DNA from: Hyphomonadaceae bacterium BRH_c29
Lineage (GTDB): Bacteria; Pseudomonadota; Alphaproteobacteria; Caulobacterales; Hyphomonadaceae
NCBI GenBank assembly: GCA_000961695.1
Contig: LADW01000088.1
Span: 1 to 64,000, forward strand
Length of the DNA: 64,000 nt
Reading direction: 5' to 3'
Shown here: positions 5,663 to 64,000 of the stretch, in pieces
How the letters are laid out: every line of letters begins with the position of its first letter
Position numbering within the stretch: the first letter of the stretch is position 1
Notes under the pieces: model-generated
Seen by the model: only the letters and a program-made list of their open reading frames with translations
What the model was told of the DNA's origin: nothing
The model's database searches: none
Made by a program: the position numbers and the translations under genes

Positions 5663-6250
5663 TCAGCCCGTGTCGTTCCACCGGCTGAACGCGGCGGCCA
5701 GCATCATGGGCAGGCCCGACGCCATGACGCCGAGTTCCGGATGCAGGCGCCGCGTGTCCAGGGTGAGGCAAAGCGGACGCGGCTCTCCCGCCGCGCGCAG
5801 ACGCTCGAGACTTCGCGCAACGCGCTTTGCATAGCGATCCGGATTTTTGAGGATGCGAGCGAAGGCAGCGTAGCGGCGCAGCAGGCCTGCCGTTGGCACC
5901 GGGCCGGAGGCCTGACGTTCGCCATCCGGAAAAGCCGGGCCGTCCAGCGTGTAGACCTGGACCTGCCCGCTCAGCCCGAAACTGTAAGGCGGATGGGACT
6001 TTGTGACGATCTGATCGTCATCCTCTTTCGCTTGTTTCGGCGCACGTGGTTTCACCGGCGTCAGCGTGAGCGCGATCAGTATGATCAGACGACGGAGGAT
6101 GGTCTCCAGCATTTTCATCTGCGCCTTCACCCGCCGCGCGACGGCTTGCGAGACGGTCTCGGGTTTGCGGTGAAGGCCCGCCCATACGATCTGCTCCGCA
6201 AGGCTGCGGCGAACTTCGTGAAGGGCACAGGAGGTGAAGTCATCACTCAT
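5663..6250 (-). CDS. Hypothetical protein with one membrane-like segment
   Basis: A 195-residue protein I do not recognise. Residues about 48-65 (LETILRRLIILIALTLTPV) could form one membrane helix; before it is a basic helix (RRVKAQMKM) and after it a charged Lys/Asp/Glu linker. The C-terminal half is rich in Arg and Leu and predicted helical (LLRRYAAFARILKNPDRYA). The length, in-frame ATG and codon pattern support a real gene, but there is no functional hint from neighbours. Confidence 0.6.
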   Translation of the reverse strand: MSDDFTSCALHEVRRSLAEQIVWAGLHRKPETVSQAVARRVKAQMKMLETILRRLIILIALTLTPVKPRAPKQAKEDDDQIVTKSHPPYSFGLSGQVQVYTLDGPAFPDGERQASGPVPTAGLLRRYAAFARILKNPDRYAKRVARSLERLRAAGEPRPLCLTLDTRRLHPELGVMASGLPMMLAAAFSRWNDTG

Positions 6251-6432: not shown

Positions 6433-8403
<1,971 letters not shown>

Positions 8404-39054: not shown

Positions 39055-40911
39055 ATGAAAAGACTCACCCTGACCGCCAGCGCCATTGCGCTCTGCGCTG
39101 CGCTGGGCGCCTGCGCCGTAGATGCAGCGGCCCCGGCTGAAGAGACCGTCGCTGAAACGCCTGTAATCGATGAAACCGCCGCAGAAATCGCTGAAGCGAC
39201 GGCGTTCGTCGCCCGGGCTGAAAACGAACTGGCCGCGATGAACAAGGTCGCCGCTCTCGCCTACTGGGCCAATGAAACCAACATCACTGACGAGACGGAT
39301 GCAGCCGCTGCCGAGGCGGGTGCGAAGATGACCAAGCTTGCCGTCTCTTTGGCCAACGAGTCCAAGAAATACGATGTCGAGATCTTGCCCTATGATGTTG
39401 CACGCAAGATCCGCATCCTGCGCAGCAGCATCACCATTCCGGCGCCGTCTCGCGAAGGCGCGGCGGAAGAGCTGTCGGCTATTACGACCAATCTCAGCTC
39501 CACTTATGGCAAGGGCAAGTTCGAATATAAAGGCAAGATGATCAATCTGGACGAAGCGTCCACGATCATCGAGACGTCTCGTGATCCGGAAGAGCTGAAA
39601 GCGGTCTGGGAAGGCTGGCGCACTGTGTCGCCTGCGATGAAGGACGAGTATGCCAAGATGGTCGAGATGGCCAATAAAGGCGCTCAGGAACTCGGTTATC
39701 CCACGCTCGACAAGATGTGGCTGTCCAATTACGACATGCCGCCCGAAGAGATGGAAGCTGAAGTCCAGCGCCTCTGGAGCCAGGTGGAGCCGCTCTACAA
39801 AGACCTCCACTGCTACGCCCGCACCAAACTGAATGCGACGTATGGTGACGCGGTCCAGCCTGCGACTGGTCCTATCCGGGCTGACCTGCTCGGCAATATG
39901 TGGGCTCAGCAATGGTCATCCATCTACGACATCGTGAAGCCGGACACCGCGCCGGTCAGCTATGACCTCACGACCCGCCTCAACGAGAAGGGCTACACGC
40001 CGGTCAAAATGGTCCAGACCGGCGAAGCCTTCTTCACCTCGCTGGGCTTCGATCCACTGCCGGAAACCTTCTGGGAGCGCTCCATGATCGTGCGTCCGGA
40101 AGGCAAGGAAGTCGTCTGCCACGCTTCGGCCTGGGATCTCGACGATGAGGATGATGTGCGCATCAAGATGTGCACCGAAGTGAATTCGGAGGACTTCTAC
40201 ACGGTCCACCACGAGCTCGGTCATAACTTCTACCAACGCGCCTACAAGGACCAGCCATACCTCTACAAGAATGGCGCCCATGATGGCTTCCACGAGGCCA
40301 TTGGCGATTTTATTGGCCTGTCGATCACGCCGGAATATCTGGAGCAGATCGGCCTTATCACTGAAGCAGAAAAGCCGGGTCCCGATGCTGACACGGCGCT
40401 TCTGATGAAGACCGCGCTCGACAAAATCGCTTTCCTGCCTTTTGCCCTGACGGTCGACAGCTGGCGTTGGGACGTGCTGAACGGTACGACCAAGCCGGAT
40501 GATTACAATTCGGCCTGGTGGGACCTGCGTCTCAAGAACCAGGGCATTGTGCCGCCGGGCCCACGTCCGGCTGACGCGTTCGATCCCGGCGCGAAGTATC
40601 ACATTCCGGGCAATACGCCTTACCTGCGTTATTTCCTGTCCTTTGTGATGCAGTTCCAGTTCCACAAGGCCGCCTGCGAACAGGCCGGCTGGGACGGCCC
40701 ACTGCACCGCTGCTCGATCTATGACAACAAGGAAGTCGGCGAGCGCTTCAACGAGATGCTGGAAGCTGGCATGTCGCGTCCATGGCCGGAGACGCTCGAA
40801 AAGTTCACCGGCACGCGCGAGATGGATGCCAGCGCCATGGTCGAGTATTTCGCCCCGCTGTCCGAGTATCTGAAAGAGCAGAACGAAGGCCAGACCTGCG
40901 GTTGGGACTAG
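39055..40911 (+). CDS. M2 family peptidyl-dipeptidase (ACE-like) lipoprotein
   Basis: A 618-residue zinc peptidase of the angiotensin-converting-enzyme family. It begins MKRLTLTASAIALCAALGAC with a clear lipobox (LGAC), so it is probably a periplasmic or outer-membrane lipoprotein. The active site is HELGH (His386, Glu387, His390) with a third ligand in GFHEAIGD. Flanking sequence (KMWLSNYDM, DLTTRLNEKGYTPVKMVQ, FHEAIGDFIGLS) matches the family over the full length. It removes C-terminal dipeptides from peptides. It sits between bolA and grxD with no overlap. Confidence 0.92.
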   Translation: MKRLTLTASAIALCAALGACAVDAAAPAEETVAETPVIDETAAEIAEATAFVARAENELAAMNKVAALAYWANETNITDETDAAAAEAGAKMTKLAVSLANESKKYDVEILPYDVARKIRILRSSITIPAPSREGAAEELSAITTNLSSTYGKGKFEYKGKMINLDEASTIIETSRDPEELKAVWEGWRTVSPAMKDEYAKMVEMANKGAQELGYPTLDKMWLSNYDMPPEEMEAEVQRLWSQVEPLYKDLHCYARTKLNATYGDAVQPATGPIRADLLGNMWAQQWSSIYDIVKPDTAPVSYDLTTRLNEKGYTPVKMVQTGEAFFTSLGFDPLPETFWERSMIVRPEGKEVVCHASAWDLDDEDDVRIKMCTEVNSEDFYTVHHELGHNFYQRAYKDQPYLYKNGAHDGFHEAIGDFIGLSITPEYLEQIGLITEAEKPGPDADTALLMKTALDKIAFLPFALTVDSWRWDVLNGTTKPDDYNSAWWDLRLKNQGIVPPGPRPADAFDPGAKYHIPGNTPYLRYFLSFVMQFQFHKAACEQAGWDGPLHRCSIYDNKEVGERFNEMLEAGMSRPWPETLEKFTGTREMDASAMVEYFAPLSEYLKEQNEGQTCGWD

Positions 40912-50247: not shown

Positions 50248-50548
50248 ACGAGCAGGAGACGGCGGCGACCGCAAAATGTCCAGTGCCGCCAAAAGCCTAT
50301 GCTTAATCTTCGCGAATCAGATGGTTTTAGTTCAAAATACTCTCGCACTGAATGAAAGTCTTTGCCTGAACGAGATATCGCCCCTAAGCCAGTCGTGTAA
50401 AAGATACTGCAGCTTTGGGGGATGCGAGCCAGAAGGCAAACAAACACCCCGCTGTGAAAGACGGGTTTTCTGCGACGGGCGTATTCCGTTCGTATAGTTT
50501 TAAATAGCGACTGCGTAGAATTGTGCAGTGAGATGGCAAGAAGTGTCC
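50248..50548. other. Intergenic region upstream of the pfa operon
   Basis: This 300-base, locally AT-richer gap between divergent genes holds no credible gene. TATAGT at 50493-50498 and TTTTAAATAG just after it are possible -10 elements, with no good -35. It should hold the promoter for the lipid synthase operon and for the CoA-transferase, but no operator or terminator is convincing. Confidence 0.5.
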
Positions 50549-52096
50549 ATGAGAATGAACGTGTACGACACGATCATCAAGAACCCTCGCCTCCCGGTCA
50601 GCCTGGCGCTTTCCGAGAACGAGATCACAGTGTGTACGGCGCCCGCGGGTTCGCCCTCAGATGCGGTGACTTTGCCTCCCATTTATCCCGAATGGCTTGG
50701 AGACCGCGCCTTCTCTGGAACGCATGGGTCCAGATTCAATTACGTTGTCGGGGAAATGGCTCGCGGCATTACGACGCCACGTATGGTTGTTGCGGCGGTG
50801 CGTGCTGGGTGTGTGGGCTTCTATGGAAGCGCTGGCCTGCCCGTTGACGAAATTGAGCGTGGCCTCCGCCTGATCAAGTCGGAACTCTCTGCCGGTCAGG
50901 CGGCATGGGGCGCAAACCTGATCCATACGCCACAACAGCCGGGCTATGAGGCAGACGTGGTGAACCTCTTCATCCGCGAAGACGTGAAGCGGGTATCCGC
51001 ATCTGCCTACATGCGCCTGTCGCCAGAGATTGTCCGCTACACTGCGCTGGGCCTCTCAAGAGATCACAATGGTAACATTGTGCGCGCTCACCATGTGTTT
51101 GCAAAAGTCTCACGGGCTGAAGTTGCGGAGCAGTTCATGGCGCCCGCTCCGGATGCCATCCTGAAGGATCTTGTCGCATCAGGTGCCATCTCGGCTGAGC
51201 AGGCAAACCTTTCCAGTCAGGTGCCCGTCGCCGCAGAGATCACGGCGGAAGCTGACAGCGGCGGGCATACGGACCGCCGCGCTGCGGCCCCGCTCTTTTC
51301 CTCGATCTGCGCCGCGCGAGACCGTGTCGCGGCCAAAACAGGCATTGATCCCAACACGATCCGCATCGGCGTCGCAGGCGGAATTGCGACCCCTCAAGCG
51401 GTCACCGCAGCCTTCAGCATGGGCGCGGCTTATGTCCTGACCGGGTCGATCAATCAGGCGGCCGTAGAGTCCGGCCTGTCACTGGCCGGCCGGCAATTGC
51501 TGGCCAAAGCAGGCCCGGCCGATGTCGCCATGGCCCCCGCAGCCGACATGTTCGAACAGGGCGTCGAAGTTCAGGTCCTGAAGCGCGGCACGCTCTTCGC
51601 GATGCGCGGCAAAAAGCTGTTCTATCTCTACAGGAGCGGCGCGGCCTTCGAGACGCTGGATCCGAAAGATCAGGCATGGGTCGAGGATGTGATCGGTGAG
51701 CCGTTCGCAGCCGCCTGGAAAGCGACCCGCGACTATATAAGCAAGGTCAATCCTCGCGAGGCCGAGCGGGCCGAGCAGGATGGTAACAAACGTTTTGCGC
51801 TCGTGGCGCGTCGCTATCTTTTCAACGGCGCCCAATTGGCCCGGGATGGCGATACCGCAAGGGTTGCAGATTATCAGATTTGGTGCGGACCGGCTCAGGG
51901 CGCCTTCAATGAGTGGGTCGAGGGCACGTTCCTTGAGAAGATCGAGAACCGGACCGTCCGCCAGATCGCCTGGAACCTCATGGAAGGTGCCGCGCGCATA
52001 ACCCGGGCTGCACAATTACGTGCAGTTGGTGTCGCCGTGCCGCCGACCGCCTTTTCCTACGCACCCCAGAAATTTTCTGAGACGGAGGCCGCCTGA
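50549..52096 (+). CDS. pfaD: PfaD-like enoyl reductase of the lipid synthase
   Basis: A 515-residue FMN-dependent enoyl reductase of the PfaD family, related to nitronate monooxygenases and trans-acting PKS reductases. Motifs: FNYVVGEMARGITTPRMVVAAVRAG, FYGSAGLPVDEIERGL, GRANLIHTP-like GANLIHTPQQPGYE, KVSRAEVAEQFMAPAP, VAGGIATPQAVTAAFSMGA and YVLTGSINQAAVESG. It would reduce double bonds of ACP-bound chains. The ATG at 50549 was chosen over GTG 50528 on spacing to AGAAG. TGATG overlaps it with pfaA (stop and start share one base). Location at the head of the operon matches myxobacterial pfa1. Confidence 0.9.
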   Translation: MRMNVYDTIIKNPRLPVSLALSENEITVCTAPAGSPSDAVTLPPIYPEWLGDRAFSGTHGSRFNYVVGEMARGITTPRMVVAAVRAGCVGFYGSAGLPVDEIERGLRLIKSELSAGQAAWGANLIHTPQQPGYEADVVNLFIREDVKRVSASAYMRLSPEIVRYTALGLSRDHNGNIVRAHHVFAKVSRAEVAEQFMAPAPDAILKDLVASGAISAEQANLSSQVPVAAEITAEADSGGHTDRRAAAPLFSSICAARDRVAAKTGIDPNTIRIGVAGGIATPQAVTAAFSMGAAYVLTGSINQAAVESGLSLAGRQLLAKAGPADVAMAPAADMFEQGVEVQVLKRGTLFAMRGKKLFYLYRSGAAFETLDPKDQAWVEDVIGEPFAAAWKATRDYISKVNPREAERAEQDGNKRFALVARRYLFNGAQLARDGDTARVADYQIWCGPAQGAFNEWVEGTFLEKIENRTVRQIAWNLMEGAARITRAAQLRAVGVAVPPTAFSYAPQKFSETEAA

Positions 52097-55000
52097 TGCC
52101 TAAACAGACCCCTCCCCCGATTGCCATTGTTGGCATGGGTGCCGTGTTCCCCGGACGCGGAGATGTTACCGGCTTCTGGCGTGACCTGTTTGAAGGACGC
52201 GACCTGATCAGTGATGTGCCTCCCAGCCATTGGCTGATCGACGACTATTATGACGACGATCCGAAAACCAAGGATCGCACCTATGGCCGGCGCGGTGGAT
52301 TCATCAGTCCACTGGCATTTGATCCGCTCTATTTCGGCATCCCGCCAAAAGCCATGGAAGGCACGGACACGGCGCAGTTGCTGGCCCTGATCGCCGCAAA
52401 CATGACGCTGGAAGACATTGCGCAGGATTCCGGTGGCCTGATCGACAAGTCTCGCACCAGCATCATTCTGGGCGTCGCATCGGCAACCGAGCTGACTGCG
52501 CACATGGCCGGGCGACTTCAACGTCCAGCCTGGGTGAATGCAATGCGCCAGGCAGGCCTTGCCGAGAGCCAGGTTCAGGATATTGCCCGCAGGATTAGTG
52601 ACCATTATGTCGACTGGCAGGAAGCGACGTTCCCCGGTCTGTTGGGCAATGTCATTGCCGGGCGGATCGCCAACCGGTTTGACCTGACGGGCAGCAATTA
52701 TGTGACCGACGCGGCCTGCGGGTCCAGCCTTGCGGCCCTACAGATTGCCCTGCACGAACTTCGCTCTGGCGACAGCGATACCGTGCTGACGGGCGGTGTG
52801 GATGCTCTGAACGACATCCTGATGTTCATGTGCTTCTCGAAGACGCCCGCGCTTTCTGTCTCCGGAGACTGCCGGCCCTTTTCGTCCCGCAGCGACGGTA
52901 CGATGCTGGGCGAAGGCGTCGGGATGATCGCTCTGCGCCGGCTGGAAGATGCCGAGCGGGATGGAAACAAGATTTACGCAGTGATCCGAGGCCTCGGTGG
53001 GGCTTCTGATGGCAAAGGCACGGCCATTTACAGTCCAGCGCCGCGCGGTCAGGCCCGGGCGTTGAAACGCGCGTACGAACAGGCCGGGTATGATCCTTCC
53101 ACGGTAGATCTTGTTGAGGCGCATGGCACCGGCACCAAAGCGGGCGACAAGGCCGAGATTGAGGGTCTGCACCTCGTCTTCGGGGAACATGCAGGCGATG
53201 AGCCCTGGTGCGCTGTCGGGTCCGTCAAAGCACAGATGGGGCATGCGAAGGCGGCGGCTGGATCTGCCAGTTTGATCAAGATCGCCCATGCGCTGAGCCG
53301 CAAGGTTTTGCCGCCAACCATCAAGGTGGAAGAGCCTGCGGACGCGATCAAGACCAGCCCGGTCTTCTATCTGAACACTGAAGCCAGACCCTGGGTATCT
53401 CCGGAGAAGCGCCCGCGCAGGGCGTCTGTCAGCTCCTTCGGGTTTGGTGGAAGCAATTTCCATGTAACGCTCGAAGAATATGTTGGGCCGAACGCGGTAA
53501 AGCCATGGCGCACGCTTCCCTCCGAATTGTTTCTGTTCTCCGCGGATTCACCGGATGCGCTGAATCGTCAGATCGGAGACGTTTCGACTTCTGTGTCTGA
53601 AGCAGGGTTTGCCTTCCGGGCGAGCGAGACTCAGGAGGCGTTCGATGCGTCCGCGCCTGCCCGCGCGGCCATTACGGCAAACTCGCCGGATGATTTTACG
53701 GCCAAAGCCGCGCAAGTTTCCGACGCGATCCAGCGGGGAGAAATCGGCAAACGTCCCCTGAAGGCGGGATGCTACGTTTCTTTCGAACCTGCGGCTGACG
53801 GCAAGATAGCTTTCATGTTTTCTGGTCAGGGCAGTCAATATGTCGGCATGGGGTCAGACCTCGCCATGGCGTTCCCTTCCGCCCGCGCGATCTGGGATCA
53901 GGCCGCCGGGCACAAGCGGACGGGTCCGCTAAATCTGCACCGCCTTGCCTTCCCGCCGGCTGCGTTCGATCAGGTAGAGCATGGTGACCAAACGGACCGC
54001 CTGAAGGCGATGGAACACGCCCAACCTGCGATCGCCGCCGTGGCGCTGGCACATCTCGCGTTGCTTACAGATGCCGGCGTTCGCGCTGACACTGCCGCCG
54101 GGCACAGTTTCGGCGAGATCATGGCGCTTCACTATAGCGGCGCTATGACCATAGACGGCACTCTGACGGCTGCCGCAGAGCGCGGTGCATTGATGGCCGA
54201 AGCGGCAAAATCAAGTTCCGGCTCCATGATGGCAGTGCAGGCTGCCTCAGAGGACATTGGGGATATTCTGTCACGGTTCGCACCGGATCTCGTTCTGGCC
54301 AATGACAATGGACCGAGCCAGGTCGTGCTGTCTGGCCCGACAAATATCATTACCCAGGCGCTTGAGGCCTGTTCACAAAAAGGCCTGAAGGCGCGTCTTC
54401 TGCCTGTCGCAACGGCTTTCCATTCCAAGATTGTCGCATCAGCAGTTGAGCCCTTCGAAGCTGTGCTCAAGAAAGTCCGGCTGCGCAAACCATCACTTCC
54501 AGTCTACGCGAATGCGACGGCTGAGCCCTATGCCTGCACGGCGGCGCTGTTGCCGACAGAGGCCGCTGGACAACTCGCCTCGCCCGTCCGGTTCCGCGAG
54601 CTCGTTGAACGTATGTATGCCGATGGCGTCCGCACTTTCGTGGAAGTCGGTCCCGGTTCGGTTGTGACCGGACTGGTCGATGACGTGTTGGGAGATCGTG
54701 CGCACAAGGCGTATGCCCTGGACAACAAACGCGTAAATGGTGTGTCGCAATTCCTTTCGACCTTGGGTGCACTCTCTGTCGCGGGTGTCTCTGTTGATTA
54801 TGCGGGCCTGTTTGAGGCGCTTCCTGCAGAGCCGCCACGACCCGCTCCCCCGAAGCACGCCGTACAGATATCCGGCGCAAACTACGGAAAGCCTTATCCG
54901 CCGCAGTCTGGTGCTGCTGGACGGGCATTGCCCAATCCGGAGAAGGCCCAGCCGGAACCTTCTGCGACCCAACCCAGCGCGTCACCCTCAAAGCGCGCTC

Positions 55001-56028
55001 CGAACATTCCCGCTCCTTCATTCCCCGCCCTCAGATATCAGGAACCTGCCATGGCTGATTCTTCCTATTCTTCCTTCCCCATTGATCCAGCTGGTGCAGG
55101 TGGTGAAACGCCCGCCGAGCGGGTGATGATGGAAGTGTCACGGCGCCACTCCGATTTTCTCAACATGGCATCAGCCGCACACGCGGCGTATCTGAATACG
55201 GTTGCACAGGTGATGGGGGGTGCCCCGGCATCAGCACCCGCTCCGAAAGCGCTGCCGGTTCCCTCGTACGCTTCGACACCCGCACCTGCTGCTGCGCCGG
55301 CTCCGGTGCAAGCCGCAGCGCAACCTGCCCCGGCACAACTAGCCCCCTCGAAACCCACTCAGCCAGTGAGCGGATTGGTGCGGGAAGTCGCACCCGCTGC
55401 GCCGCCGCCAAAGCCTGCCGCGCCCAGGCCCGCGCCTGCGGCGGCCCCCAAGGCAGCGCCTGCTATTGATGCTGTCGCACTGGTGCGCGGCATCATTGCC
55501 GACAAGACCGGCTATCCCGAAGACATGCTGGATGTGGACATGGATCTGGAAGGTGAACTCGGCGTCGACTCGATCAAGCAGGTCGAAATTCTTTCGACAC
55601 TGCGAGAACAAATGCCCGAGCTCCCGGAAATAGATCCGGAGCGCCTCGTGGAGCTGCGCACGATTGGCGCAATTGCGGATATGGTTTCAGGCAGCACGGG
55701 GCGCGCGCCGGTTGCTGCACCCTTGACACCTGTGCCAGCGGCTGCTCCGGCGCCGACCATTGCTGCGTCGCCTGCCGCGGCTCCCGCTGGTGCCAATGGC
55801 AAGATATCAACGGATGTCGTTCGGGCCCTGATCGCCGACAAGACGGGCTATCCGGCTGATATGCTGGAAGATGACATGGATCTGGAGGGTGAGCTTGGCG
55901 TAGATTCCATCAAGCAAGTCGAAATCCTATCGGCTCTGCGGGATCAACATCCGGGGCTTCCTGAAGTCGACCCGGAAGTGCTCGTAGAACTTCGCTCCAT
56001 TCGGGCCATCGCCGATTTTTTTGCCTGA
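52096..56028 (+). CDS. pfaA: PfaA-like megasynthase, KS-AT-ACP-ACP part
   Basis: This 1310-residue protein carries a ketosynthase (PIAIVGMGAVFPGRGD; active Cys208 in DAACGSS; His343 in EAHGTGT; His383 in QMGHAKAAAG), an acyltransferase (FMFSGQGSQYVGMGSDL; nucleophile Ser671 in AGHSFGE), an Ala/Pro-rich linker (about 950-1130) and two ACPs with phosphopantetheine serines at 1159 and 1271 (GVDSIKQVEIL twice). IDDYYDDDP, FGIPPKAMEGTDTAQLL and the layout match PfaA rather than ordinary PKS. Only two ACPs are present; EPA/DHA systems usually have five or more. It ends by a stop six bases after a T run, with the expected KR domain in the next frame. Confidence 0.9.
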   Translation: MPKQTPPPIAIVGMGAVFPGRGDVTGFWRDLFEGRDLISDVPPSHWLIDDYYDDDPKTKDRTYGRRGGFISPLAFDPLYFGIPPKAMEGTDTAQLLALIAANMTLEDIAQDSGGLIDKSRTSIILGVASATELTAHMAGRLQRPAWVNAMRQAGLAESQVQDIARRISDHYVDWQEATFPGLLGNVIAGRIANRFDLTGSNYVTDAACGSSLAALQIALHELRSGDSDTVLTGGVDALNDILMFMCFSKTPALSVSGDCRPFSSRSDGTMLGEGVGMIALRRLEDAERDGNKIYAVIRGLGGASDGKGTAIYSPAPRGQARALKRAYEQAGYDPSTVDLVEAHGTGTKAGDKAEIEGLHLVFGEHAGDEPWCAVGSVKAQMGHAKAAAGSASLIKIAHALSRKVLPPTIKVEEPADAIKTSPVFYLNTEARPWVSPEKRPRRASVSSFGFGGSNFHVTLEEYVGPNAVKPWRTLPSELFLFSADSPDALNRQIGDVSTSVSEAGFAFRASETQEAFDASAPARAAITANSPDDFTAKAAQVSDAIQRGEIGKRPLKAGCYVSFEPAADGKIAFMFSGQGSQYVGMGSDLAMAFPSARAIWDQAAGHKRTGPLNLHRLAFPPAAFDQVEHGDQTDRLKAMEHAQPAIAAVALAHLALLTDAGVRADTAAGHSFGEIMALHYSGAMTIDGTLTAAAERGALMAEAAKSSSGSMMAVQAASEDIGDILSRFAPDLVLANDNGPSQVVLSGPTNIITQALEACSQKGLKARLLPVATAFHSKIVASAVEPFEAVLKKVRLRKPSLPVYANATAEPYACTAALLPTEAAGQLASPVRFRELVERMYADGVRTFVEVGPGSVVTGLVDDVLGDRAHKAYALDNKRVNGVSQFLSTLGALSVAGVSVDYAGLFEALPAEPPRPAPPKHAVQISGANYGKPYPPQSGAAGRALPNPEKAQPEPSATQPSASPSKRAPNIPAPSFPALRYQEPAMADSSYSSFPIDPAGAGGETPAERVMMEVSRRHSDFLNMASAAHAAYLNTVAQVMGGAPASAPAPKALPVPSYASTPAPAAAPAPVQAAAQPAPAQLAPSKPTQPVSGLVREVAPAAPPPKPAAPRPAPAAAPKAAPAIDAVALVRGIIADKTGYPEDMLDVDMDLEGELGVDSIKQVEILSTLREQMPELPEIDPERLVELRTIGAIADMVSGSTGRAPVAAPLTPVPAAAPAPTIAASPAAAPAGANGKISTDVVRALIADKTGYPADMLEDDMDLEGELGVDSIKQVEILSALRDQHPGLPEVDPEVLVELRSIRAIADFFA

Positions 56029-56042
56029 GGGGCGGCGCGCCC
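56016..56042 (+). other. Slippery T7 heptamer plus hairpin between PfaA and its KR domain
   Basis: Seven T (56016-56022) lie as T TTT TTT in the pfaA frame, the register of a -1 slippery heptamer. The stop TGA (56026-56028) follows after one codon. A hairpin GGGCG-GCG-CGCCC (56030-56042) starts seven bases after the heptamer, the usual spacing. A -1 shift opens CLRGGAPEEADRPGAP and runs into the KR region without a stop. Motif arrangement is directly visible; function is not proven. Confidence 0.6.
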
Positions 56043-56099
56043 GAAGAGGCGGACCGTCCCGGCGCTCCTGACGCGCAGGTAATCCCATATGCGAACGCT

Positions 56100-57470
56100 G
56101 TGCGAGCCTTGATGCCCGTTCGAGCGTTCGGATATGCTGGCGGTAAACCTTTGCCTTTTAGCGGCCCTGTCGAAATCACAAATGCCGCGCCGGAATATGC
56201 GCAAGCGCTGTTGCGCGCCATTCAGGCTCATGGCGGCGAGACCCGCATTGTACCCCGCGTATCGGGGCAAAGTCTCGCTATTCTAACCGAAGGCCTTTCT
56301 TCGCTCAGCACAAGTGAGCGGCACTATGCTGTGCTTGAAGCGCTTCTGGCGCGCGCCGATGGTGCGCCAACGATCGTTCTCGACCTAGCGAAAGGAGAGC
56401 TTCAAAATCTTGGTGGCTGCGCCGGGCTATGCCGCTCTTTTCGGATTGAGCGTCCGCAGGCGCGCGTCTTCTCATTTTCGTTTGAGGCCTGTCCGGATTT
56501 GAGTGTCGCCTCTGAGCGCGTAGTCCTTGGGCTTGGTGAGCCATTGGACGACTATATTCTTCGTGAAGACGGTGGTTGGCGCGAAGCTCCGGGGGGGGGC
56601 TTGGTTCCGCCGACAGGGGCGGTCGTAGTCGACTATCCACCAGTCTGGCTTGTGACTGGCGGAGCACGGGGCGTCACAGCGGATTGTGCCATTGAACTTG
56701 CTCGGCGCACCGGCGGGACCTTTGTCCTGCTTGGACGGTCCAGCCTCGCCGCATGGCCGGACTGGCTGGAGCCACAATCGGACATAAAAGCATTGCGCGG
56801 CCTGCTTGCACGGAATTCCAGCCGGGCTGACATGCCGAAGAGGCCGGTTGAAATTGACCGGCTGGCTCGCCGGCTTATGGCCAGCGCTGAGATTTCATCG
56901 ACTATATCAGCCATCGAAGCTGCCGGAGCAAAAGCGCTCTACATACAGGCTGATATTGGTCACGCAGCAGAGGCTCAGAGAGTGATCGCCGCTGTACAGC
57001 AGTCGGAAGGCTCGATCACAGGATTGGTACACGGCGCGGGTGTTCTGTCCGACGGCCGGGTTGAAACACTTCAGCTTCAGGATTTCGACAAAGTCTTCGC
57101 GCCGAAAGTCGAAGGTTTCGAAACGGTCCTCTCTTGTCTCGCCACCAATCGACTTCGACATGTGGCGGTGTTTTCATCGGCGTCCGCTGTATTCGGTAAT
57201 GAGGGCCAGGCAAATTATGCGGCGGCCAATAGTTGGCTGAACAATGTCGCGGAACAATTGTCCGTCAGTTTGCCGAACGCTCAGGTAAAGGCATTTTGCT
57301 GGGGACCATGGCAAGGCGGTATGGTCGATGATGCCCTCGCCCGCATGTTCACCGAGCGCGGTATCGGCCTCATTTCGCGATCTGAAGGTGCGCGTATATT
57401 CGCAGATCAGCTGCTCCTGTCACCGCGCGAACAGGTTCGCTTTGTCATTGGCGACGAGTGGGGCGTTTGA
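56100..57470 (+). CDS. pfaA: PfaA-type ketoreductase domain, in frame -1 to pfaA
   Basis: A 456-residue frame, from GTG 56100, with no good ribosome site. It is a polyketide-type KR: cofactor loop LVTGGARGVTADC (Thr186-Gly188), then HGAGVLSDGRVE, FAPKVEGFET, and SSASAVFGNEGQANYAAAN with the Ser and Tyr of the catalytic set. In intact PfaA the KR follows the ACPs on the same chain, and the open frame here continues upstream without a stop through 56022. A -1 shift at the T7 run would give a single protein of about 1791 residues. It overlaps pfaC (TGATG). A run of nine G (56591-56599) inside it is also prone to slippage. Confidence 0.85.
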   Translation: MRALMPVRAFGYAGGKPLPFSGPVEITNAAPEYAQALLRAIQAHGGETRIVPRVSGQSLAILTEGLSSLSTSERHYAVLEALLARADGAPTIVLDLAKGELQNLGGCAGLCRSFRIERPQARVFSFSFEACPDLSVASERVVLGLGEPLDDYILREDGGWREAPGGGLVPPTGAVVVDYPPVWLVTGGARGVTADCAIELARRTGGTFVLLGRSSLAAWPDWLEPQSDIKALRGLLARNSSRADMPKRPVEIDRLARRLMASAEISSTISAIEAAGAKALYIQADIGHAAEAQRVIAAVQQSEGSITGLVHGAGVLSDGRVETLQLQDFDKVFAPKVEGFETVLSCLATNRLRHVAVFSSASAVFGNEGQANYAAANSWLNNVAEQLSVSLPNAQVKAFCWGPWQGGMVDDALARMFTERGIGLISRSEGARIFADQLLLSPREQVRFVIGDEWGV

Positions 57471-60400
57471 TGAGTTCTTTTGAGCCCATCGCGATTATTG
57501 GTCAGGGCTGCGTCCTGCCTGGGGCTCACACGCCTGAAGCATTGACTGATCTCGTCATGGATCGAAAGGTTGTGTACGGCGCAGTTCCGCCCGAAGACCT
57601 CGGTCTCTTCGGTGCAGCGGCTCGGGATCGTCAGTTTGTTTCTGGTCGCGTCCACGGGTTCGATGACCTATTCGAGCCGGACAGAGCCCGGCTGAAATCT
57701 GTAAACGCAGCAGAGTTGGACCCTGTCTGCAGCTGGCCGTTGAAAGCGGCGCTGGACGCGTGGGCAGACGCGGCGCGGCCAAAAGTCAAAGGCTCGGCGC
57801 TCGGCGTGTTCGTCGCGAACCTGTCATACCCATCTGCCGGTCACGTCGAATACGCGTCCAGCATCTGGCGTGGGGAAGATCCGCCCCCAGCACACATGGC
57901 TCTGAATTCAGCGCTGCCTGCACGCCTGATCGCCGAAGCCTTGCGGGCGACCGGGCCGTGCTTCTCGCTTGACGCGGCTTGCGCGTCTTCGCTCTACGCC
58001 GTCGACATTGCCTGCCGGAAGCTCCAGTCACGCCAGTTGGACTGCGCGCTCGTCGCGGCTGTGAACGCGGCGGATAATCTGATCCTGCATATCGGGTTCC
58101 GGGCGCTAAACGCGCTCAGCCCGACGGGGCGGTCTCGTCCCTTTGTCCAGGGTGCTGATGGCCTGGTCCCGTCCGAAGGCGCTGCAGCAATTGTGCTCAA
58201 GCGGCTCAGTGACGTTGAGCCTGGTGAAATGGTTCACGGCGTAATCCGTGGCAGTGGCCTGTCGAACGACGGCCGGCGGAAAGGACTTCTCTCTCCAGCC
58301 GCAGCGGGGCAGACAGATGCCATGCGCCGCGCTCTGGATGAGAGTGGGATTGATCCGCTGTCGATACAGTTCCTCGAATGCCACGCGACGGGCACCCCTG
58401 TGGGCGATGGCGTGGAGGTCAGCTCCGCAACGTCAGTCTATGCTGGATTGGAGCGGCTGCCTGCCGGGTCTCTGAAGGCCAATACGGGGCACCTGATCAC
58501 GGTTGCCGGCCTTGCCAGTATCCTGAAACTCACAGGCTCGATGGCACGTGAGGCACTTCCGCCAACCCCGCTTGATGGCGACTTATTGAGCGCCGTGAGC
58601 CACTCGAATTTGGATGTGTTGTCAGCGCCTGAACCATGGACATCTCTCCACGGCCCACGACGCGCTTCGATCAGCAATTTTGGATTTGGCGGAAATAACG
58701 CCCACCTTATCCTGGAGGAATATCGTCCATCTGAGCGGACCGGGCGCAATCGCACCGCAAAGCCAAATGCGGCGCCGGAAATCGTCATCTGCGACGCTGC
58801 CTTGATGGCAGGAAGCGACAAGACAACAGACGCCGTCCTAAGGCGCCTGATGAACCATCCTGTGGCGCCGCCCGCACCAATGACATCCATTGGTGCGGAT
58901 GCCACCGCGGCACGGATGCCACCAAAGGACCTAGCGCAAGCAGAGCCTCACCAACTGGCCATTCTGTCGACCGTCAGCGAGGGTCTGCAGCGAGTTGCCC
59001 CTGTCGCGACCGATCAGACAGGCGTCTTTGCGGGAATGTCATGCGCGGCAGACTCTGCGCGCTGGGCGCTTCGAGAACGGGTCAAGGTCAACCCAAAGCA
59101 GTCTCCGGATGATGTGGCGCCGGAACTCGATGCCGCCATGGTGCTTGGGGCCATGGCGAACATGTCTGCCAACCGCGTGACCTTTTCGCGTGATTTTCAG
59201 GGCATGGGATATTCTGTCTCCGCCGGAGGGGCCAGTGGGTTGGCGGCGTTGGACCTCGCCATAGACGCTTTGTCGTCCGGCCGGTTGTCCATGGCCGTCG
59301 TGGCTGCCGCAGACATGTGCAGCGAACCGGTCAGAGCGAAGGCTCTAAAGGATGTCCACGGCATCGAGCGCCCGGGGGGGGATGCAGCCGCCGCGCTGAT
59401 CCTGAAACGCCGGGAAGACGCGGAAGCCGCTGGCGATCCCATTCTCGCCTCTGTGTCTGGGGTTGAGTGGAAGAATCGGGCCGCGTCAGAAACCGATGAT
59501 TTGTTCAGCAGCGTGTATGGTCACGTACCGGATGCAGATGCGTTGATCCGCGTTGCGCTTGAAGCTCTGCTCAACGCGTACAGCCACACGCAGACTCCAG
59601 ATGGCGCGGTCCTCACCTTGTCACCCAAGCCGAAGAAAAGCCGCGTGAGCGTGTCTGCCGGCCCGGCCAATGCAGGCGCGTCGGTGGCTTTGGCAGCTTC
59701 GGCGCCGCAGGTTGTGCCGGATCCACTTCGCCCCACGCCATCAATCTTCTTCGCTTCAGCTGGTGACAAGGAAAAGCTCGCTGCTGCGCTGCGATCCGAC
59801 AAGCCAGGTGGACGGGGCAAATGCCGGATTGCGATCGTTGCTACACCGGGTGCGGACATGGACGGAAAACTGGCTTCCGCCGCGCGAGAGCTGATCAGAG
59901 GCAATGCTCCATCAGGCAGTGGTGTTCATTACGGCGAAGGCAAACCTGAGGGCGAACTTGCCTTCATGTTTACAGGATCCGCAGCTGTATATCCGCGCAT
60001 GGCCCGGCGGCTGTTGATGGCCTTTCCGGAAATCCGGGATCGGTTATCCAAACTCTCGCGCGCGGAAGAGATAGCGGCATTGCTGGCGCGCTCCAGCCTC
60101 TCCGAATTCGAACAACTCTGTGCGGGCACGCTGGTCAGTCAGGCGCATGCGATCCTGTTGCTGGATATTCTGAAAGTGAAGCCGGATGCCGCCATTGGCC
60201 TGTCGCTCGGAGAGTCCAATGCGCTGTTTTCGTTTGGCTACTGGAAAGATCCGGGCGACTTGCTGGACGAGATTTCCAAAGCGGCCATGTATGAACGCCA
60301 CATAGGCGGAGACTTCGAAACAGCGCGGCAGGCATGGGGGCCGAACGTGCCGACGGACTGGACGAATTGGCGGCTTCAGGCGCCCGTCGATAAGGTTCGC

Positions 60401-63400
60401 AGCGCGCTGGAGCGCCATCCCGGCGTCGAGATCACAATCATCTATACCGACGAAGACTGCATGATTGGCGGCCCTGCAGATGCTTGCCGGCAGATGTGTG
60501 AAGAATTTGGTCCCAAGGCTGGCGTGAAGATGAACCAGCATCTGATCGTTCACGCGAAGGCTATGGCGCCGTTTGCGGATACGTGGCGGCAGTTGCACAC
60601 GCGCAAGGTCTATCCGGGGTCTGGCGTGCGCCTCTACGCCAATGCGATCCATGCGGCTTATAAGCCGGAGACGGATCTTGTCGCGGATATGCTGACGCGT
60701 CAGGCCGTTGATACCGTGGACTTCCCAAAAACGGTGCGCCGTGCGTGGGACGACGGTGTCCGGACGTTCGTCGAACTTGGTCCCCGGGATACGCTGACAC
60801 AAAGCCTCTCCACGACGCTTAAGGGCAAACCCTACCACGCTGTCGCGATTGACCGGATTGAGGCGTCCGATCTGGGCCAGGTCGCGGAAGCGGCGGCATT
60901 TCTCTACGCAGATGGGCGCGCAATCGACATGAAGCCGATTGTGGGCGTCCTGTCTGCAGCTCAAAAAAATGAAGTCACGCCGCCGAACGGCGAATGGACA
61001 GCAACCAGACCGGTGCCTTATCCCATGCCTCATATTCTCAAAGACCTGTCGCGTCCGGCGGCTGCGATCCTTCCACCTGCCCCGCGCTTGCGAATGCCGG
61101 ATTATGGTAACCGAAGCGGGTGCGAACGGGATACGGCGGTCACCAGCCGTATCCCTCCGGTCACCGCTGGTCTCCCTGCGGTCTCCGAACGTAACGATCC
61201 GCCTCAGAAAATCGTCAATGGCAGCGTCGCATTGCGACAGAGGCCCCCTTCCGGTCCCTCCTGGGAGCGCGGCGCGATTGAGGCATCGACGCGCGGGAAA
61301 ATGTCTGACTTCTTCGGGCCGCTTTTCAAGGATCAGGACGCGTTCACGCGGCAGGTCCGCCTGCCGGCGCCGCCCCTCTTGCTGGTGGATCGCATTACCG
61401 GCATTGAGGCCGCGCCGACCGAAGAGCGGGGCGGCGTGATCTGGACCGAGACCGTTCTCGAAAACCATCTGGACTTCATTCATGATGGACGTATCCGGCC
61501 GGGCCCGCTGATCGAATGCGGACAGGCCGACCTGACGCTGATCGGCTGGATGGGCGCGGATCTGCGCAATCAGGATGAACGGGTCTATCGCTTGCTAGGC
61601 TGCGAGATCACCTTCCACGAAGGTGGCTTGCCGCGTGTTGAGGACACGCTGCGCTTCCAGATCGAGATTACGGGGCATGCCGAGCTTGGCGGTGTCCGCA
61701 TGTTCTTCTTTCAGTATGATTGTCGTGCGAACGATCGGCTCGCGTTCTCGATCCGTAACGGGCAGGCTGGCTTCTTCACGGATGAAGAACTCGCCAACAG
61801 CAAGGGCGTGATCTGGGACGCGACCAAAGACGCGCCTCCAACGGCGGAGCCAACCGTCTTTACGCCTCAGCGCGTGAGTTCTCGCCGCAAGTTCTCGAAA
61901 GACCAAGTCACCGCCTTCAGGATCGGCGATGCCTGGACCTGTTTCGGTGAGGGATTCGAGCTATGCGCGGCGCATTCGAACCCGCCCCACATTCCAGCCG
62001 GAAAACTCGCGCTCTTCGACGAAGTGATTGCGTTCGATCCCGCCGGCGGACCATGGAAGCGTGGATACTTGCGTGCCAGGGCGGCGACGCCAGCCTCAAG
62101 CTGGTTCTTTGACGGACACTTCCACAAGGACCCGTGCATGCCGGGAACGCTGATGGCGGAAGCTGCAGTGCAGACGCTGGAATTCTATGCGGCAGCTGTC
62201 GGTCTGACGGTGGAGCGCGATGGATATGTTTTTGAGCCAATTCCGGAGCATACGGCGAAGTTTGTCTGCCGGGGGCAAGTCATTCCGGATGCGGACCATG
62301 ATGTAACCTATGAAGTGTTCATCGACGAGGTGATCGATGGTGAGTCGCCCGAGATCTACGCGTCCCTGCTCGCCCGCAGTGACGGGCATAAAGTGTTCCA
62401 CTGCCCGCGCTTCGGGATTCGACTGCGCCGGAACTGGCCGGCGCCTCGCATTGATGAACATCCTCTGCTGATCGGGCCACATAAGGAAAGCCGCGGAGAT
62501 CAGGCGGCGCTGCTCGATTGCGCGAATGGTGCGCCGTCGGCGGCCTTCGGTGAAATGTACGAACGATACGACGATCAGGGGAATGTACCGCGTCTGCCGC
62601 AGGAGCCCTATCATTTCATTTCGCGAGTCATGTCCGTATCGACTCGGCCTGCTGAGGAAATGCTTGGTGCGACGATGACAGCAGAATACGACATCGTGCC
62701 GGATGACTGGTATTTCAATGACAATGTGAACGGGAAGATGCCCTTCGCCGTTCTCTGCGAGATCGCCTTGCAGCCGTGTGGGTGGCTGGCGAGCCATTCC
62801 GGGTTCGCACTTGTCGGCACGCTGCGGTTCCGGAATCTGGAGGGCGATGGCTTCCTTTACGAAGAAGTGTCTCGTGAAGACGGCATGCTCACGACGCGCA
62901 GCACGCTGACCAGCATTTCGAAAGTCGGGCCGATGACGCTCGTCTCCTTCGATGTGGACGTGGTCAGGAAAGACGGTCGCAGGATTCTTGACCTGAAGAC
63001 GCAGTTTGGCTTCTTCCCGCCGTCTTCCCTTGTGCGTCAGGCGGGCCTGCCCGCAAAACCACACTTCAGCAGCGCTTTCGACCTTCGCCCAGCCCCTGTA
63101 CAGATTACGATGCAGGCGCCGAAGGCCCTGGGTCGCATGCAGATGATTGATGAAATCGACTATTGCGATCCGAATGGCGGTGAAGCCGGGCTGGGTCTGA
63201 TCCGGTCGCAGCAGCACGTTGATCCCAACGCGTGGTACTTCAAGGCGCACTTCTATCAGGACCCGGTTCAGCCCGGCTCTCTCGGGCTGGATGCGATGGT
63301 TCAGGCGCTGACTCAGCTGATCTGGAAGAAAGGTCTCCATGCTGGCATGACGTCTCCGCATCTCACCACGCTTGCGCCAAATGCGCAGATCAAGTGGAGC

Positions 63401-63574
63401 TATCGGGGCCAGGTCACACCGGAGCGAAAAACCGTGACGAGTGTGATGGAGATCCTGAAGATCGAGGAACGGGACGAAGATATTCTGATCACGGCGCGTG
63501 GAAGCCTGTGGCGGGACGGTCTGCGCGTGTACGAAGTTGGCCCGATGTGTGTTTCGCTAAGGGATGACGGCTAA
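57470..63574 (+). CDS. pfaC: PfaC-like megasynthase with KS-CLF-AT-DH-DH
   Basis: A 2034-residue protein. Order: KS (Cys171 in DAACASS; His305 in ECHATGT; His341 in NTGH), chain-length-factor domain (SVSAGGASG, where Gly587 replaces the KS cysteine), acyltransferase (FMFTGSAAVYPRMARRL; Ser912 in GLSLGES, His of GHS replaced by Leu), then FabA-like hotdog regions with DH sites at His1550 (GHFHKDPCMPG) and His1927 (AHFYQDPVQPG). PfaC normally is KS-CLF-DH-DH with the AT on PfaB; here it is fused, as in myxobacterial Pfa3, but with no C-terminal acyltransferase beyond the DHs. Start ATG 57470 overlaps the KR stop; GTG 57458 is an alternative. Confidence 0.9.
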   Translation: MSSFEPIAIIGQGCVLPGAHTPEALTDLVMDRKVVYGAVPPEDLGLFGAAARDRQFVSGRVHGFDDLFEPDRARLKSVNAAELDPVCSWPLKAALDAWADAARPKVKGSALGVFVANLSYPSAGHVEYASSIWRGEDPPPAHMALNSALPARLIAEALRATGPCFSLDAACASSLYAVDIACRKLQSRQLDCALVAAVNAADNLILHIGFRALNALSPTGRSRPFVQGADGLVPSEGAAAIVLKRLSDVEPGEMVHGVIRGSGLSNDGRRKGLLSPAAAGQTDAMRRALDESGIDPLSIQFLECHATGTPVGDGVEVSSATSVYAGLERLPAGSLKANTGHLITVAGLASILKLTGSMAREALPPTPLDGDLLSAVSHSNLDVLSAPEPWTSLHGPRRASISNFGFGGNNAHLILEEYRPSERTGRNRTAKPNAAPEIVICDAALMAGSDKTTDAVLRRLMNHPVAPPAPMTSIGADATAARMPPKDLAQAEPHQLAILSTVSEGLQRVAPVATDQTGVFAGMSCAADSARWALRERVKVNPKQSPDDVAPELDAAMVLGAMANMSANRVTFSRDFQGMGYSVSAGGASGLAALDLAIDALSSGRLSMAVVAAADMCSEPVRAKALKDVHGIERPGGDAAAALILKRREDAEAAGDPILASVSGVEWKNRAASETDDLFSSVYGHVPDADALIRVALEALLNAYSHTQTPDGAVLTLSPKPKKSRVSVSAGPANAGASVALAASAPQVVPDPLRPTPSIFFASAGDKEKLAAALRSDKPGGRGKCRIAIVATPGADMDGKLASAARELIRGNAPSGSGVHYGEGKPEGELAFMFTGSAAVYPRMARRLLMAFPEIRDRLSKLSRAEEIAALLARSSLSEFEQLCAGTLVSQAHAILLLDILKVKPDAAIGLSLGESNALFSFGYWKDPGDLLDEISKAAMYERHIGGDFETARQAWGPNVPTDWTNWRLQAPVDKVRSALERHPGVEITIIYTDEDCMIGGPADACRQMCEEFGPKAGVKMNQHLIVHAKAMAPFADTWRQLHTRKVYPGSGVRLYANAIHAAYKPETDLVADMLTRQAVDTVDFPKTVRRAWDDGVRTFVELGPRDTLTQSLSTTLKGKPYHAVAIDRIEASDLGQVAEAAAFLYADGRAIDMKPIVGVLSAAQKNEVTPPNGEWTATRPVPYPMPHILKDLSRPAAAILPPAPRLRMPDYGNRSGCERDTAVTSRIPPVTAGLPAVSERNDPPQKIVNGSVALRQRPPSGPSWERGAIEASTRGKMSDFFGPLFKDQDAFTRQVRLPAPPLLLVDRITGIEAAPTEERGGVIWTETVLENHLDFIHDGRIRPGPLIECGQADLTLIGWMGADLRNQDERVYRLLGCEITFHEGGLPRVEDTLRFQIEITGHAELGGVRMFFFQYDCRANDRLAFSIRNGQAGFFTDEELANSKGVIWDATKDAPPTAEPTVFTPQRVSSRRKFSKDQVTAFRIGDAWTCFGEGFELCAAHSNPPHIPAGKLALFDEVIAFDPAGGPWKRGYLRARAATPASSWFFDGHFHKDPCMPGTLMAEAAVQTLEFYAAAVGLTVERDGYVFEPIPEHTAKFVCRGQVIPDADHDVTYEVFIDEVIDGESPEIYASLLARSDGHKVFHCPRFGIRLRRNWPAPRIDEHPLLIGPHKESRGDQAALLDCANGAPSAAFGEMYERYDDQGNVPRLPQEPYHFISRVMSVSTRPAEEMLGATMTAEYDIVPDDWYFNDNVNGKMPFAVLCEIALQPCGWLASHSGFALVGTLRFRNLEGDGFLYEEVSREDGMLTTRSTLTSISKVGPMTLVSFDVDVVRKDGRRILDLKTQFGFFPPSSLVRQAGLPAKPHFSSAFDLRPAPVQITMQAPKALGRMQMIDEIDYCDPNGGEAGLGLIRSQQHVDPNAWYFKAHFYQDPVQPGSLGLDAMVQALTQLIWKKGLHAGMTSPHLTTLAPNAQIKWSYRGQVTPERKTVTSVMEILKIEERDEDILITARGSLWRDGLRVYEVGPMCVSLRDDG

Positions 63575-64000
63575 GTCTGGATCGCGCGAGCACAGACCGC
63601 CTGCTCCAGTTCTTCGAGTTCCACCTGATAGGTGACGCCGTCATGCGAGAGCGTGAACCGGTTGCACTGGCCGACGATATAATTGCTCGGGAGGGCAACC
63701 CGCTTCGCCCCTCCTTTCAGGCCTGTGCCTGCGGCTTTCAGGATGGCTTCTTTGGCCGTCCAGCAACGGAAGAACGCTGCAGGTTGGGTCCCTTCCCCAG
63801 ACGCGCGCTTGATTTGCTCCGCCTCTCCGGGCACGCTCATCATGGCTAGCATCGGTTCCCATGCGAGCGGGCGGTAGTGCTCAATGTCGATTCCGACAGG
63901 GCGATTCTGACTGAGGGCCAGTGCGTTGAAGCCGTTGCTGTCTGACAGGCTCAGCTTCGTTTCCGGATAGTGAGGAAGGTAGGGCTTGCCGTTATTGTCG
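63571..64000 (-). CDS. Sfp-type phosphopantetheinyl transferase (5' end beyond right edge)
   Basis: The 142 visible residues read GKPYLPHYPETKLSLSDS, ALALSQNRPVGIDIEHYRP and FFRCWTAKEAILKAAGTGLK, the three Sfp/PfaE motifs (the DxE magnesium site and WxxKEA). It would add 4'-phosphopantetheine to the ACPs of the pfa operon. It is convergent with pfaC, stops overlapping by three bases. The N terminus lies outside the window. A role as PfaE is inferred from location. Confidence 0.9.
   Translation of the reverse strand, partial: DNNGKPYLPHYPETKLSLSDSNGFNALALSQNRPVGIDIEHYRPLAWEPMLAMMSVPGEAEQIKRASGEGTQPAAFFRCWTAKEAILKAAGTGLKGGAKRVALPSNYIVGQCNRFTLSHDGVTYQVELEELEQAVCARAIQT

Follow-up and report, generated by a model that had tools for sequence, protein, structure and literature searches.

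Pfa-type synthases have been described in several gene layouts. Type A/B systems (Shewanella, Moritella) encode KS, MAT, ACPs, KR, KS-CLF, AT, two DHs, ER and a PPTase (PMC3098273), with a separate pfaB and, in Type A, 4–6 ACPs in the same protein as the KR. Type L has PfaD first and an AT fused into PfaC behind the DHs (KS-CLF-DH2-AT; PMC3098273), and in Type D (Psychroflexus) the KS-AT-ACPs and the KR are two genes, with a pfaBC order of KS-CLF-AT-DH2 (PMC3098273). Types D and H are both published as two genes, and the comparison made here is by description only; the word "frameshift" is absent from the main text of that paper (PMC3098273). The parts of the literature covered, which include PMC3711429, PMC5009743, PMC13291983, PMC10885494, PMC3098273, PMC4882568, PMC12614181, PMC7179689 and PMC2866489, report no frameshift for any PUFA synthase or PKS, no Pfa work on Hyphomonas and no lipid product from it; supplements, subscription papers and GeneTack cluster lists lie outside this scope.

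With regard to mechanism, the known counterpart is dnaX (tau/gamma), a chromosomal gene whose single mRNA, by way of a slippery heptamer, gives rise to two proteins sharing their N-terminus (PMC3711429), with a downstream stem-loop (according to a title cited in PMC4066793). Some two-ORF dnaX genes need recoding to make the longer form (PMC3711429). Conserved programmed frameshifts are otherwise scarce in non-mobile chromosomal genes, their number being described as one that "is small" (PMC5009743).

The locus analyzed here lies in a 64,000-nucleotide stretch from Hyphomonadaceae bacterium BRH_c29 (the window), which encodes together a PfaD-type ER, KS-AT-tandem ACP, KR, KS-CLF and two FabA-type DHs, the KR via the −1 frame only. 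These are the activities of Type A/B in a different layout. The original prediction of a myxobacterial-like arrangement stands with regard to the ER gene coming first and the AT fused into PfaC, features shared with Type L, but the Type L domain order is not found, as the AT precedes the DHs here in the order seen in Type D. The myxobacterial-like loci (L064, L065, L071–L073) also differ in having the KR in frame with the ACPs.

Synthase genes and Pfa identity

The pfaD-like enoyl reductase gene (50528..52096, forward strand; alternative start, ATG at 50549) scored 531.9 bits against TIGR02814 (cut-off 449.25), and its stop overlaps the start of pfaA as TGATG. The 0-frame ORF of pfaA (52096..56028, forward strand, 1310 aa) encodes KS, AT, ACP and ACP, with DAACGSS at 205, GHSFG at 669 and GVDSIK at 1156 and 1268, which we take to be the KS, AT and ACP motifs, respectively. 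It ends at a conserved stop directly behind a slippery heptamer, and the ORF alone reached 994.1 bits against NCBIfam omega_3_PfaA, below the cut-off of 1010.1; scored apart from it, the KR ORF reached 240.9 bits. The −1-frame continuation (56022..57470, forward strand, 482 aa) comprises a linker, a stretch without a Pfam match and the KR (PF08659, 1.6e-33), is matched by the KR part of TIGR02813, and together with the first 1309 pfaA residues gives a product of 1791 aa.

The KR stop overlaps, again as TGATG, the start of the pfaBC-like (PfaC-like) gene (57470..63574, forward strand), which encodes KS, CLF, AT and two FabA-type DHs. The AT, at about residues 807–1123 and N-terminal of the DHs, is weak (Acyl_transf_1, 26.2 bits, cut-off 32.7; pfaB_fam, 66.6 bits, cut-off 144.3) and carries a GLSLG motif. 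A convergent 4′-phosphopantetheinyl transferase gene on the reverse strand (63571..64000, continuing to 64260 beyond the window) matched PF01648 at 3.6e-12, a value obtained on the whole protein taken from L005. This neighbor is not constant: of the 14 relatives with 700 nt or more of sequence beyond pfaC, 8 gave a tblastn match to the window's PPTase (E 1e-6). The host itself is placed in Hyphomonas by its relatives, and pfaD is present in 41 of the 42 genomes from that genus.

In a quick tree of 77 rows, which carried long-branch warnings and lacked named references for Types A, B and L, the PfaA KS fell inside a 40-row PfaA clade (SH-aLRT 100) and, within a 28-row group (SH-aLRT 98), with Myxococcota and Azospirillum. 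Outside the family, the closest relatives of PfaD and of the KS likewise included Myxococcota. Loci with the separate-pfaB layout (L111, L112, L114, L115, L118) have PfaD last and their KS in another clade, apart from that of the window. The original prediction had named KS domains branching with ordinary PKS as grounds for its rejection; the comparison available for this consisted of five rows (L094, L097, L098), unannotated and judged by layout, one L094 KS sitting among the PfaC KSs on a long branch, and the window's KS lay with Pfa synthases near the myxobacterial and Azospirillum ones, which did not refute the claim. Judged from its sequence, the Pfa-type ("secondary lipid") iterative synthase encoded by the operon is real.

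Other parts of the original prediction fared unevenly. Two ACPs were found, as stated, and are present in 49 of 49 relatives, and the domain search returned no AGPAT domain in the synthase genes at E 0.001; a PF01553 acyltransferase domain occurs in the relatives L099 (Azospirillum) and L092 (G461). The step from two ACPs to a shorter product is not supported, given that ACP number is tied to throughput by Shulse and Allen 2011 (PMC3098273). The "complete set" holds insofar as pfaD, pfaA, a pfaC-like gene and a PPTase gene are present, the last complete only past the window. The KR, however, is not inside the PfaA ORF but in the −1 frame, so that a ribosomal frame shift would be required for a complete set with a fused PfaA.

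The frameshift cassette at the ACP-KR junction

The heptamer T_TTT_TTT (56016..56022, forward strand) lies in phase with the pfaA frame (GAT TTT TTT GCC TGA), with the 0-frame stop TGA (56026..56028, forward strand) one codon past it. In E. coli, heptamers of the form H_HH.U_UU.Y rank with the −1 motifs of highest efficiency (PMC4066793). We compared 49 junctions from Hyphomonas, Henriciella and related genomes (isolates and MAGs), of which 41 are distinct across 52 nt and no two are identical across 900 nt, although the genomes are related and the counts are therefore not independent. T_TTT_TTY is present in all 49 (T7 in 32, T6C in 17), as is the stop (TGA 20, TAG 15, TAA 14). The first Phe codon of the heptamer is TTT in 45/45, although across the gene bodies TTT accounts for just 421 of the 1580 codons for Phe. 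Prior to the count of 46 junctions to which three were added, we left out L001 and L006–L024 (19 short loci, copies or too short), loci with stretches ending before the KR (L033, L036, L040, L051, L053, L091), L089 (a duplicate of L056), G034 (contig end near pfaD), and L119, L120, L123–L125 and L127 (copies of L061, L059, L054, L057, L038 and L055).

Among the window's 240 long ORFs, pfaA alone combines an in-phase heptamer no more than 4 codons ahead of its stop with a −1 frame open for more than 100 codons. A wider background of 1243 long ORFs (28 sequences) gave 32 in-phase heptamers at most 5 codons from the stop, nine of the efficient class, including the window and both split junctions found outside the family. 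The −1 frame is open for at least 100 codons after seven of these 32, namely the three junctions, L094, L097, L108 and a second place in L107; given the four extra cases, an extended open −1 frame is by itself weak evidence in GC-rich DNA.

Stimulators of −1 frameshifting generally begin 5–8 nt downstream (PMC4066793), and a hairpin (56029..56060, forward strand; a 7-bp outer stem plus an inner stem) follows the window's heptamer after a 6-nt spacer. Its 32 nt fold at −21.4 kcal/mol (z −2.7); over a 37-nt stretch the window's z is −1.84, one of three values above −2 among 38 distinct relatives, for which the mean is −3.2 with 35/38 below −2. The outer stem forms in 36 of the 38 distinct sequences, at 6 nt in all 36, and is missing in L030 and L084. 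Since a MAFFT alignment of the 38 placed hairpins of 32 and 35 nt (the range among relatives being 32–35 nt) out of register, the lengths were counted apart, in one set of 29 sequences that includes the damaged L030 and L084 and one of nine comprising the window's own subclade. When tested for covariation, the 29 sequences yielded 42 two-sided-change cells against 15.6 when shuffled (0/500 as high) and a maximum of 28 when slid, with two-sided change in 9 of 14 pairs (shuffled 7.0, 47/500 as high). The window's own subclade yielded no two-sided changes because the stem hardly varies there.

An SD-like element assists the shift in E. coli dnaX. None was found at the pfaA site, where 0 of 48 sites ranked in the top tenth of pfaA windows for anti-SD pairing. 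Such a stimulator upstream of the heptamer had been hinted at by the absence of CGC from the Arg codon four codons before the site's Asp codon (0/45, although across the gene bodies CGC makes up 1536 of the 2850 codons for Arg), and was set aside given that the anti-SD pairing is not unusual. The pfaA site further differs from that of dnaX in that the E. coli shift leads to a shorter protein and the pfaA shift would lead to a longer one; the genes and their functions are unrelated.

The KR lies in the −1 frame at 45/46 plus 3/3 junctions, i.e., 48 of 49. At the 45 junctions with a KR motif, the distance from heptamer to motif takes 15 lengths, all multiples of 3 apart, and over it the −1 frame is free of stops in 45/45 with both other frames stopped. 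Differences 48–93 nt past the heptamer were 176/154/366 (73 overlapping pairs), the third position of the −1 frame being highest, as it also was over codons 14–25 in eight independent pairs (24/20/41). Within the hairpin no third-position excess was seen (115/103/119). The motif search found no KR motif in L030, L031, L037 and L081; the KR of the latter three is still in the −1 frame by tblastn. L030 (Hyphomonas L-53-1-40) keeps the heptamer and stop, and a deletion has moved its KR into the 0 frame, downstream of that stop, as well as spoiling the hairpin. L084 (G031), which is without the outer stem, has further indels in pfaA and pfaC, and due to an indel upstream its heptamer is in phase only with the local frame. 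Comparison among these relatives demonstrates the cassette, how the two frames relate to each other, and that the −1 frame is under selection.

Readings of the split pfaA

We consider it probable, at roughly 0.88, that programmed −1 ribosomal frameshifting makes the first Pfa subunit in two PfaA forms; the slip, its efficiency and the two protein forms we infer. A ribosome on the pfaA mRNA would arrive at U_UUU_UUY, its two Phe tRNAs positioned on the U run, and be stalled by the hairpin 6 nt ahead. A fraction of ribosomes would then slip back one base and read through the linker into the KR, giving the 1791-aa KS-AT-ACP-ACP-KR protein, and unslipped ribosomes would stop one codon on, giving a 1310-aa KS-AT-ACP-ACP protein without the KR. 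The ratio of the two would set the number of synthase subunits carrying their own KR, and these subunits, with PfaD, PfaBC and the PPTase, would form a long-chain acyl product, as homology suggests.

A split pfaA is in print for Types D and H (PMC3098273), and an ATG, GTG or TTG occurs within the first 70 KR-frame codons at 42/45 junctions, which would fit a pfaA that ends at 56028 and a KR that acts in trans, initiated independently (at GTG 56100 or further on) or through reinitiation. We find this very unlikely: the start positions are not conserved, three of the 45 junctions have none, an SD-like motif accompanies a start in only four of 45, and coding selection on the −1 frame over codons 14–25 lies ahead of the recurrent GTG at codon 26–27. 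A separate KR gene also leaves the invariant in-phase heptamer, the stop and the covarying hairpin unexplained. Transcriptional slippage on the T run, whereby a base added to part of the mRNA would join the frames, has a very small chance of being correct. The T7 homopolymer occurs at 32 of 49 junctions, and it has been argued that dnaX genes with seven or eight A may use such slippage and that transcriptional and ribosomal slippage can replace one another (PMC3711429). However, runs of at least eight, or two shorter runs combined, are usual for it (PMC3711429), 17/49 junctions have only T6C, and a homopolymer of about eight or more, as expected for transcriptional realignment, is reached at none of the 49; the phase of a translational heptamer and the hairpin at 6 nt are conserved.

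A broken gene or sequencing error, with the frame change a mutation in a decaying operon, would fit the indels seen elsewhere in L071, L084, L108 and L116, and could apply to L030 and L084. As a reading of the family as a whole it fails, and we give it almost no credence, given the same junction in 49 genomes (isolates and MAGs alike), coding selection on both sides of it and compensatory changes in the hairpin. From the compared sequences, programmed frameshifting appears to have been retained in a megasynthase of Hyphomonas, of Henriciella and of one further genus in the family.

Pfa loci outside the family and implications

Outside the family, 21 of the 23 Pfa loci counted have ACPs and KR joined in a single frame, L094 being left out of the count (layout not Pfa-like); no KR match was present in the stretches of L060, L062, L063, L066–L070, L074, L075, L109 and L117, nor in L095–L098. 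Both exceptions, a single genome each, have an in-phase slippery heptamer at the ACP-KR junction with a hairpin about 6 nt on: C_CCA_AAG in G488, from a second class of Pseudomonadota, and G_GGA_AAG in Persicobacter psychrovividus (Bacteroidota). A search of 80 genomes for close relatives of G488 with the gene gave only G488 itself and the distant G128. The Persicobacter sister strain JZB09 has its KR in frame, with one extra base behind the same GGGAAAG. Conservation in Persicobacter was accordingly rejected, and a recent indel or an error may have caused the split in P. psychrovividus.

Only tentatively do we suggest that frameshifting recurs, having arisen or persisted at the same ACP-KR junction (Hyphomonadaceae, G488, P. 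psychrovividus), and that it determines how much reductase Pfa megasynthases carry. Recoding may account for part of the "split pfaA" types in print. At the junctions in the family, gene finders would be expected to call a shortened synthase and a stray reductase. A slippery-site check is suggested for other "split" PKS/FAS genes. The pfaA site would also provide a means, open to testing, of changing how many subunits of an iterative synthase bear a KR relative to those that do not. If the recurrence is true, one mRNA would give two synthases with unequal capacity for reduction, and the lipid product would be tuned through the rate of slipping.

The Pfa operon, its family and its host

The operon opens with pfaD (50528–52096) and pfaA (52096–56028), followed by the KR ORF (56100–57470 as listed) and pfaBC (57470–63574), with a convergent PPTase gene behind pfaBC; TGATG overlaps form both the pfaD/pfaA and the KR/pfaBC boundaries. 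Both KSs, both ACPs and both DHs carry their active-site motifs, as do KR and the ATs of PfaA and PfaBC; the CLF of PfaBC lacks the Cys. A quick tree built from 77 KS rows, whose output flags long branches, put the first KS of the window in a 40-row PfaA clade (SH-aLRT 100). Within it, this KS belonged to a 28-row group (98) that also includes Myxococcota, Azospirillum, further Alphaproteobacteria and Embleya, and the loci with a separate pfaB (L111, L112, L114, L115 and L118) fell elsewhere. The second KS fell in the PfaC-type clade. Five KS rows of L094, L097 and L098, judged ordinary PKS by layout, stood apart, and the remaining L094 KS sat on a long branch among PfaC-type rows. The original prediction, which had assigned the synthase to the Pfa family, is borne out by this grouping of the window KSs with PfaA and PfaC-type rows.

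Named relatives place the host in Hyphomonas, with PfaD 80–81% identical to those of H. jannaschiana and Hyphomonas sp. CY54-11-8. PfaD was present in 45 of the 101 genomes searched, comprising 41/42 same-genus genomes, 4/19 genomes of other genera of the family (from two genera) and none of the remaining 40 (four itemised singly). It was sparse in wider draws, at 9/385 genomes class-wide (two of the nine Hyphomonas) and 20/398 phylum-wide (five of the 20 Hyphomonadaceae). In one genome (L083, G030:C421), PfaD and PfaA seemingly share one open frame of 1824 codons, differing from the other genomes, perhaps owing to an indel. Three contigs titled Acidobacteria or Sulfopaludibacter (L047, L048 and L050) carry a Hyphomonas-type operon with 68% PfaD identity; by their coordinates they apparently equal G024, G039 and G011, which belonged to the same genus as the window in the whole-genome search, and the titles therefore look mistaken.

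Elsewhere, the window encodes a Peptidase M2 (angiotensin-converting-enzyme family) protein of 618 aa in a bacterial host (39055–40911, + strand). Past the window on the same contig, C79 (L005:1378-10683), a GH3 beta-xylosidase-like gene adjoins a row of tryptophan-halogenase-like, cupin_8, SapC and TonB receptor genes, an arrangement that looks like a carbohydrate uptake locus.

The pfaA/KR junction

KR lies in the −1 frame relative to pfaA. The 0 frame of pfaA ends GCC GAT TTT TTT GCC TGA, with the T_TTT_TTY heptamer at 56016–56022 and the stop at 56026–56028; after a one-base step back at the heptamer, the −1 frame stays open for 482 codons, through KR, to 57470, and the joined PfaA-KR protein would be 1791 aa (1309 + 482). 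Across 46 non-duplicate family junctions, all 46 have the heptamer, followed exactly one codon downstream by a local 0-frame stop, and 45 have KR in the −1 frame relative to the heptamer, the whole relation also holding in 44 when counted from the gene start. L084 carries an indel upstream that displaces the gene frame, with heptamer, stop and KR in their normal mutual relation. Three more junctions from the Henriciella genus group match (n = 49). Comparative sequence establishes the cassette and its frame relation. These 49 comprise 32 T7 and 17 T6C heptamers, TGA (20), TAG (15) and TAA (14) stops, and 41 distinct sequences over 52 nt.

Hyphomonas sp. L-53-1-40 (L030:15475-15526) retains heptamer and stop, and a deletion, either natural loss or assembly error, places KR behind the stop in the 0 frame, spoiling the hairpin as well.

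Among the window's 240 long ORFs, four carry an in-phase heptamer at most four codons before the stop, and only that at 56016 has a long open −1 frame behind it. The pattern GATTTTTTYNGNTRRGGG, which as written skips GCC-type sites including the window's own, matched in 28/105 family genomes at 29 places, one off-target (G024:C1), and its reversed version matched nowhere among the genomes listed. Four codons ahead of the site's Asp codon, at 56002–56004, lies an Arg codon that is CGC in 0/45 junctions, in contrast to the rest of the gene, where CGC is the commonest Arg codon; anti-SD pairing does not account for this absence.

Coding selection and the hairpin

Upstream, differences between relatives fall at 0-frame third positions (1236/1383, 80 pairs); inside the hairpin, no frame is visible (115/103/119 by position); and behind it, they fall at third positions in the −1 frame (366/696, 73 pairs), as do 41/85 within codons 14–25 (eight independent pairs). 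The third-position excess thus switches from the 0 to the −1 frame, making the frame change, and selection at the sequence level, visible ahead of a recurrent GTG at codon 26–27. No conserved KR start was found in the first 70 codons of 45 junctions: some start occurs in 42 and none at all in three, and a start with an SD-like motif occurs in four. We put programmed −1 frameshifting at a probability of roughly 0.88.

The hairpin starts 6 nt behind the heptamer, at 56029, in lengths of 32 and 35 nt, one codon apart. Its outer stem appears in the minimum-energy fold of 36/38 distinct stretches, being absent only from the two damaged ones (L030 and L084), and measures 6 bp in Henriciella and 7 or more in most others, with one internal mismatch in L039. 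Fold energies averaged z −3.2, with z < −2 in 35/38 stretches, the exceptions being L030, L039 and the window (−1.84; −2.7 when its hairpin is folded as 32 nt). In a 29-sequence set, 84.2% of cells were paired versus 75.1 in shuffles (0/500 as high), with 42 double-change cells versus 15.6 (0/500 as high) and two-sided changes in 9/14 pairs versus a shuffled mean of 7.0 (47/500 as high), which shows covariation. Slid versions of the hairpin reached at most 61.3% pairing and 28 double-change cells, and RNAalifold, given no prior structure, recovered the same outer stem plus four inner pairs.

Junctions outside the family and possible use

Of the 23 Pfa loci read outside the family, 21 have KR in frame at the ACP-KR junction (L064, L065, L071, L072, L073, L092, L093, L099, L101, L103, L104, L106, L108, L110–L116 and L118); among these, breaks elsewhere occur in pfaA (L071 and L116) and pfaC (L108). 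The two split loci, one genome each, both have a −1 offset. L107 (G488:C14, another class of the phylum) carries C_CCA_AAG (at 7086 of the turned locus) in phase, five codons before the stop, with a 12-bp hairpin 6 nt downstream in the centroid fold; its minimum-energy fold contains extra pairs beginning 2 nt downstream (z −2.0, 7/200 shuffles as low). L100, on plasmid pPP1 of Persicobacter psychrovividus (5960–6200), carries G_GGA_AAG in phase, three codons before the stop of its pfaA/KR split, with a hairpin of −12.1 kcal/mol, a value without shuffle control, after a 6-nt spacer. Both heptamers belong to the V_VV.A_AA.R class, one of those that PMC4066793 names as most efficient in E. coli. 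In the Persicobacter sister strain JZB09 (L106), the heptamer is the same but one base more is present and KR is fused in frame, and no close relative of L107 with the gene was found among 80 genomes.

Since PfaB is described in PMC12895367 as a terminal acyltransferase that sets the product, the AT in PfaBC likely performs the release step. From the junctions we infer slippage in vivo, two products and a dosage effect. Frameshifting would plausibly supply more KS-AT-ACP units per KR, because only two ACP motifs occur in 49/49 junction loci and ACP number is reported, in PMC3098273, to raise throughput; it may also give a mixture poor in KR, in which some keto groups remain.
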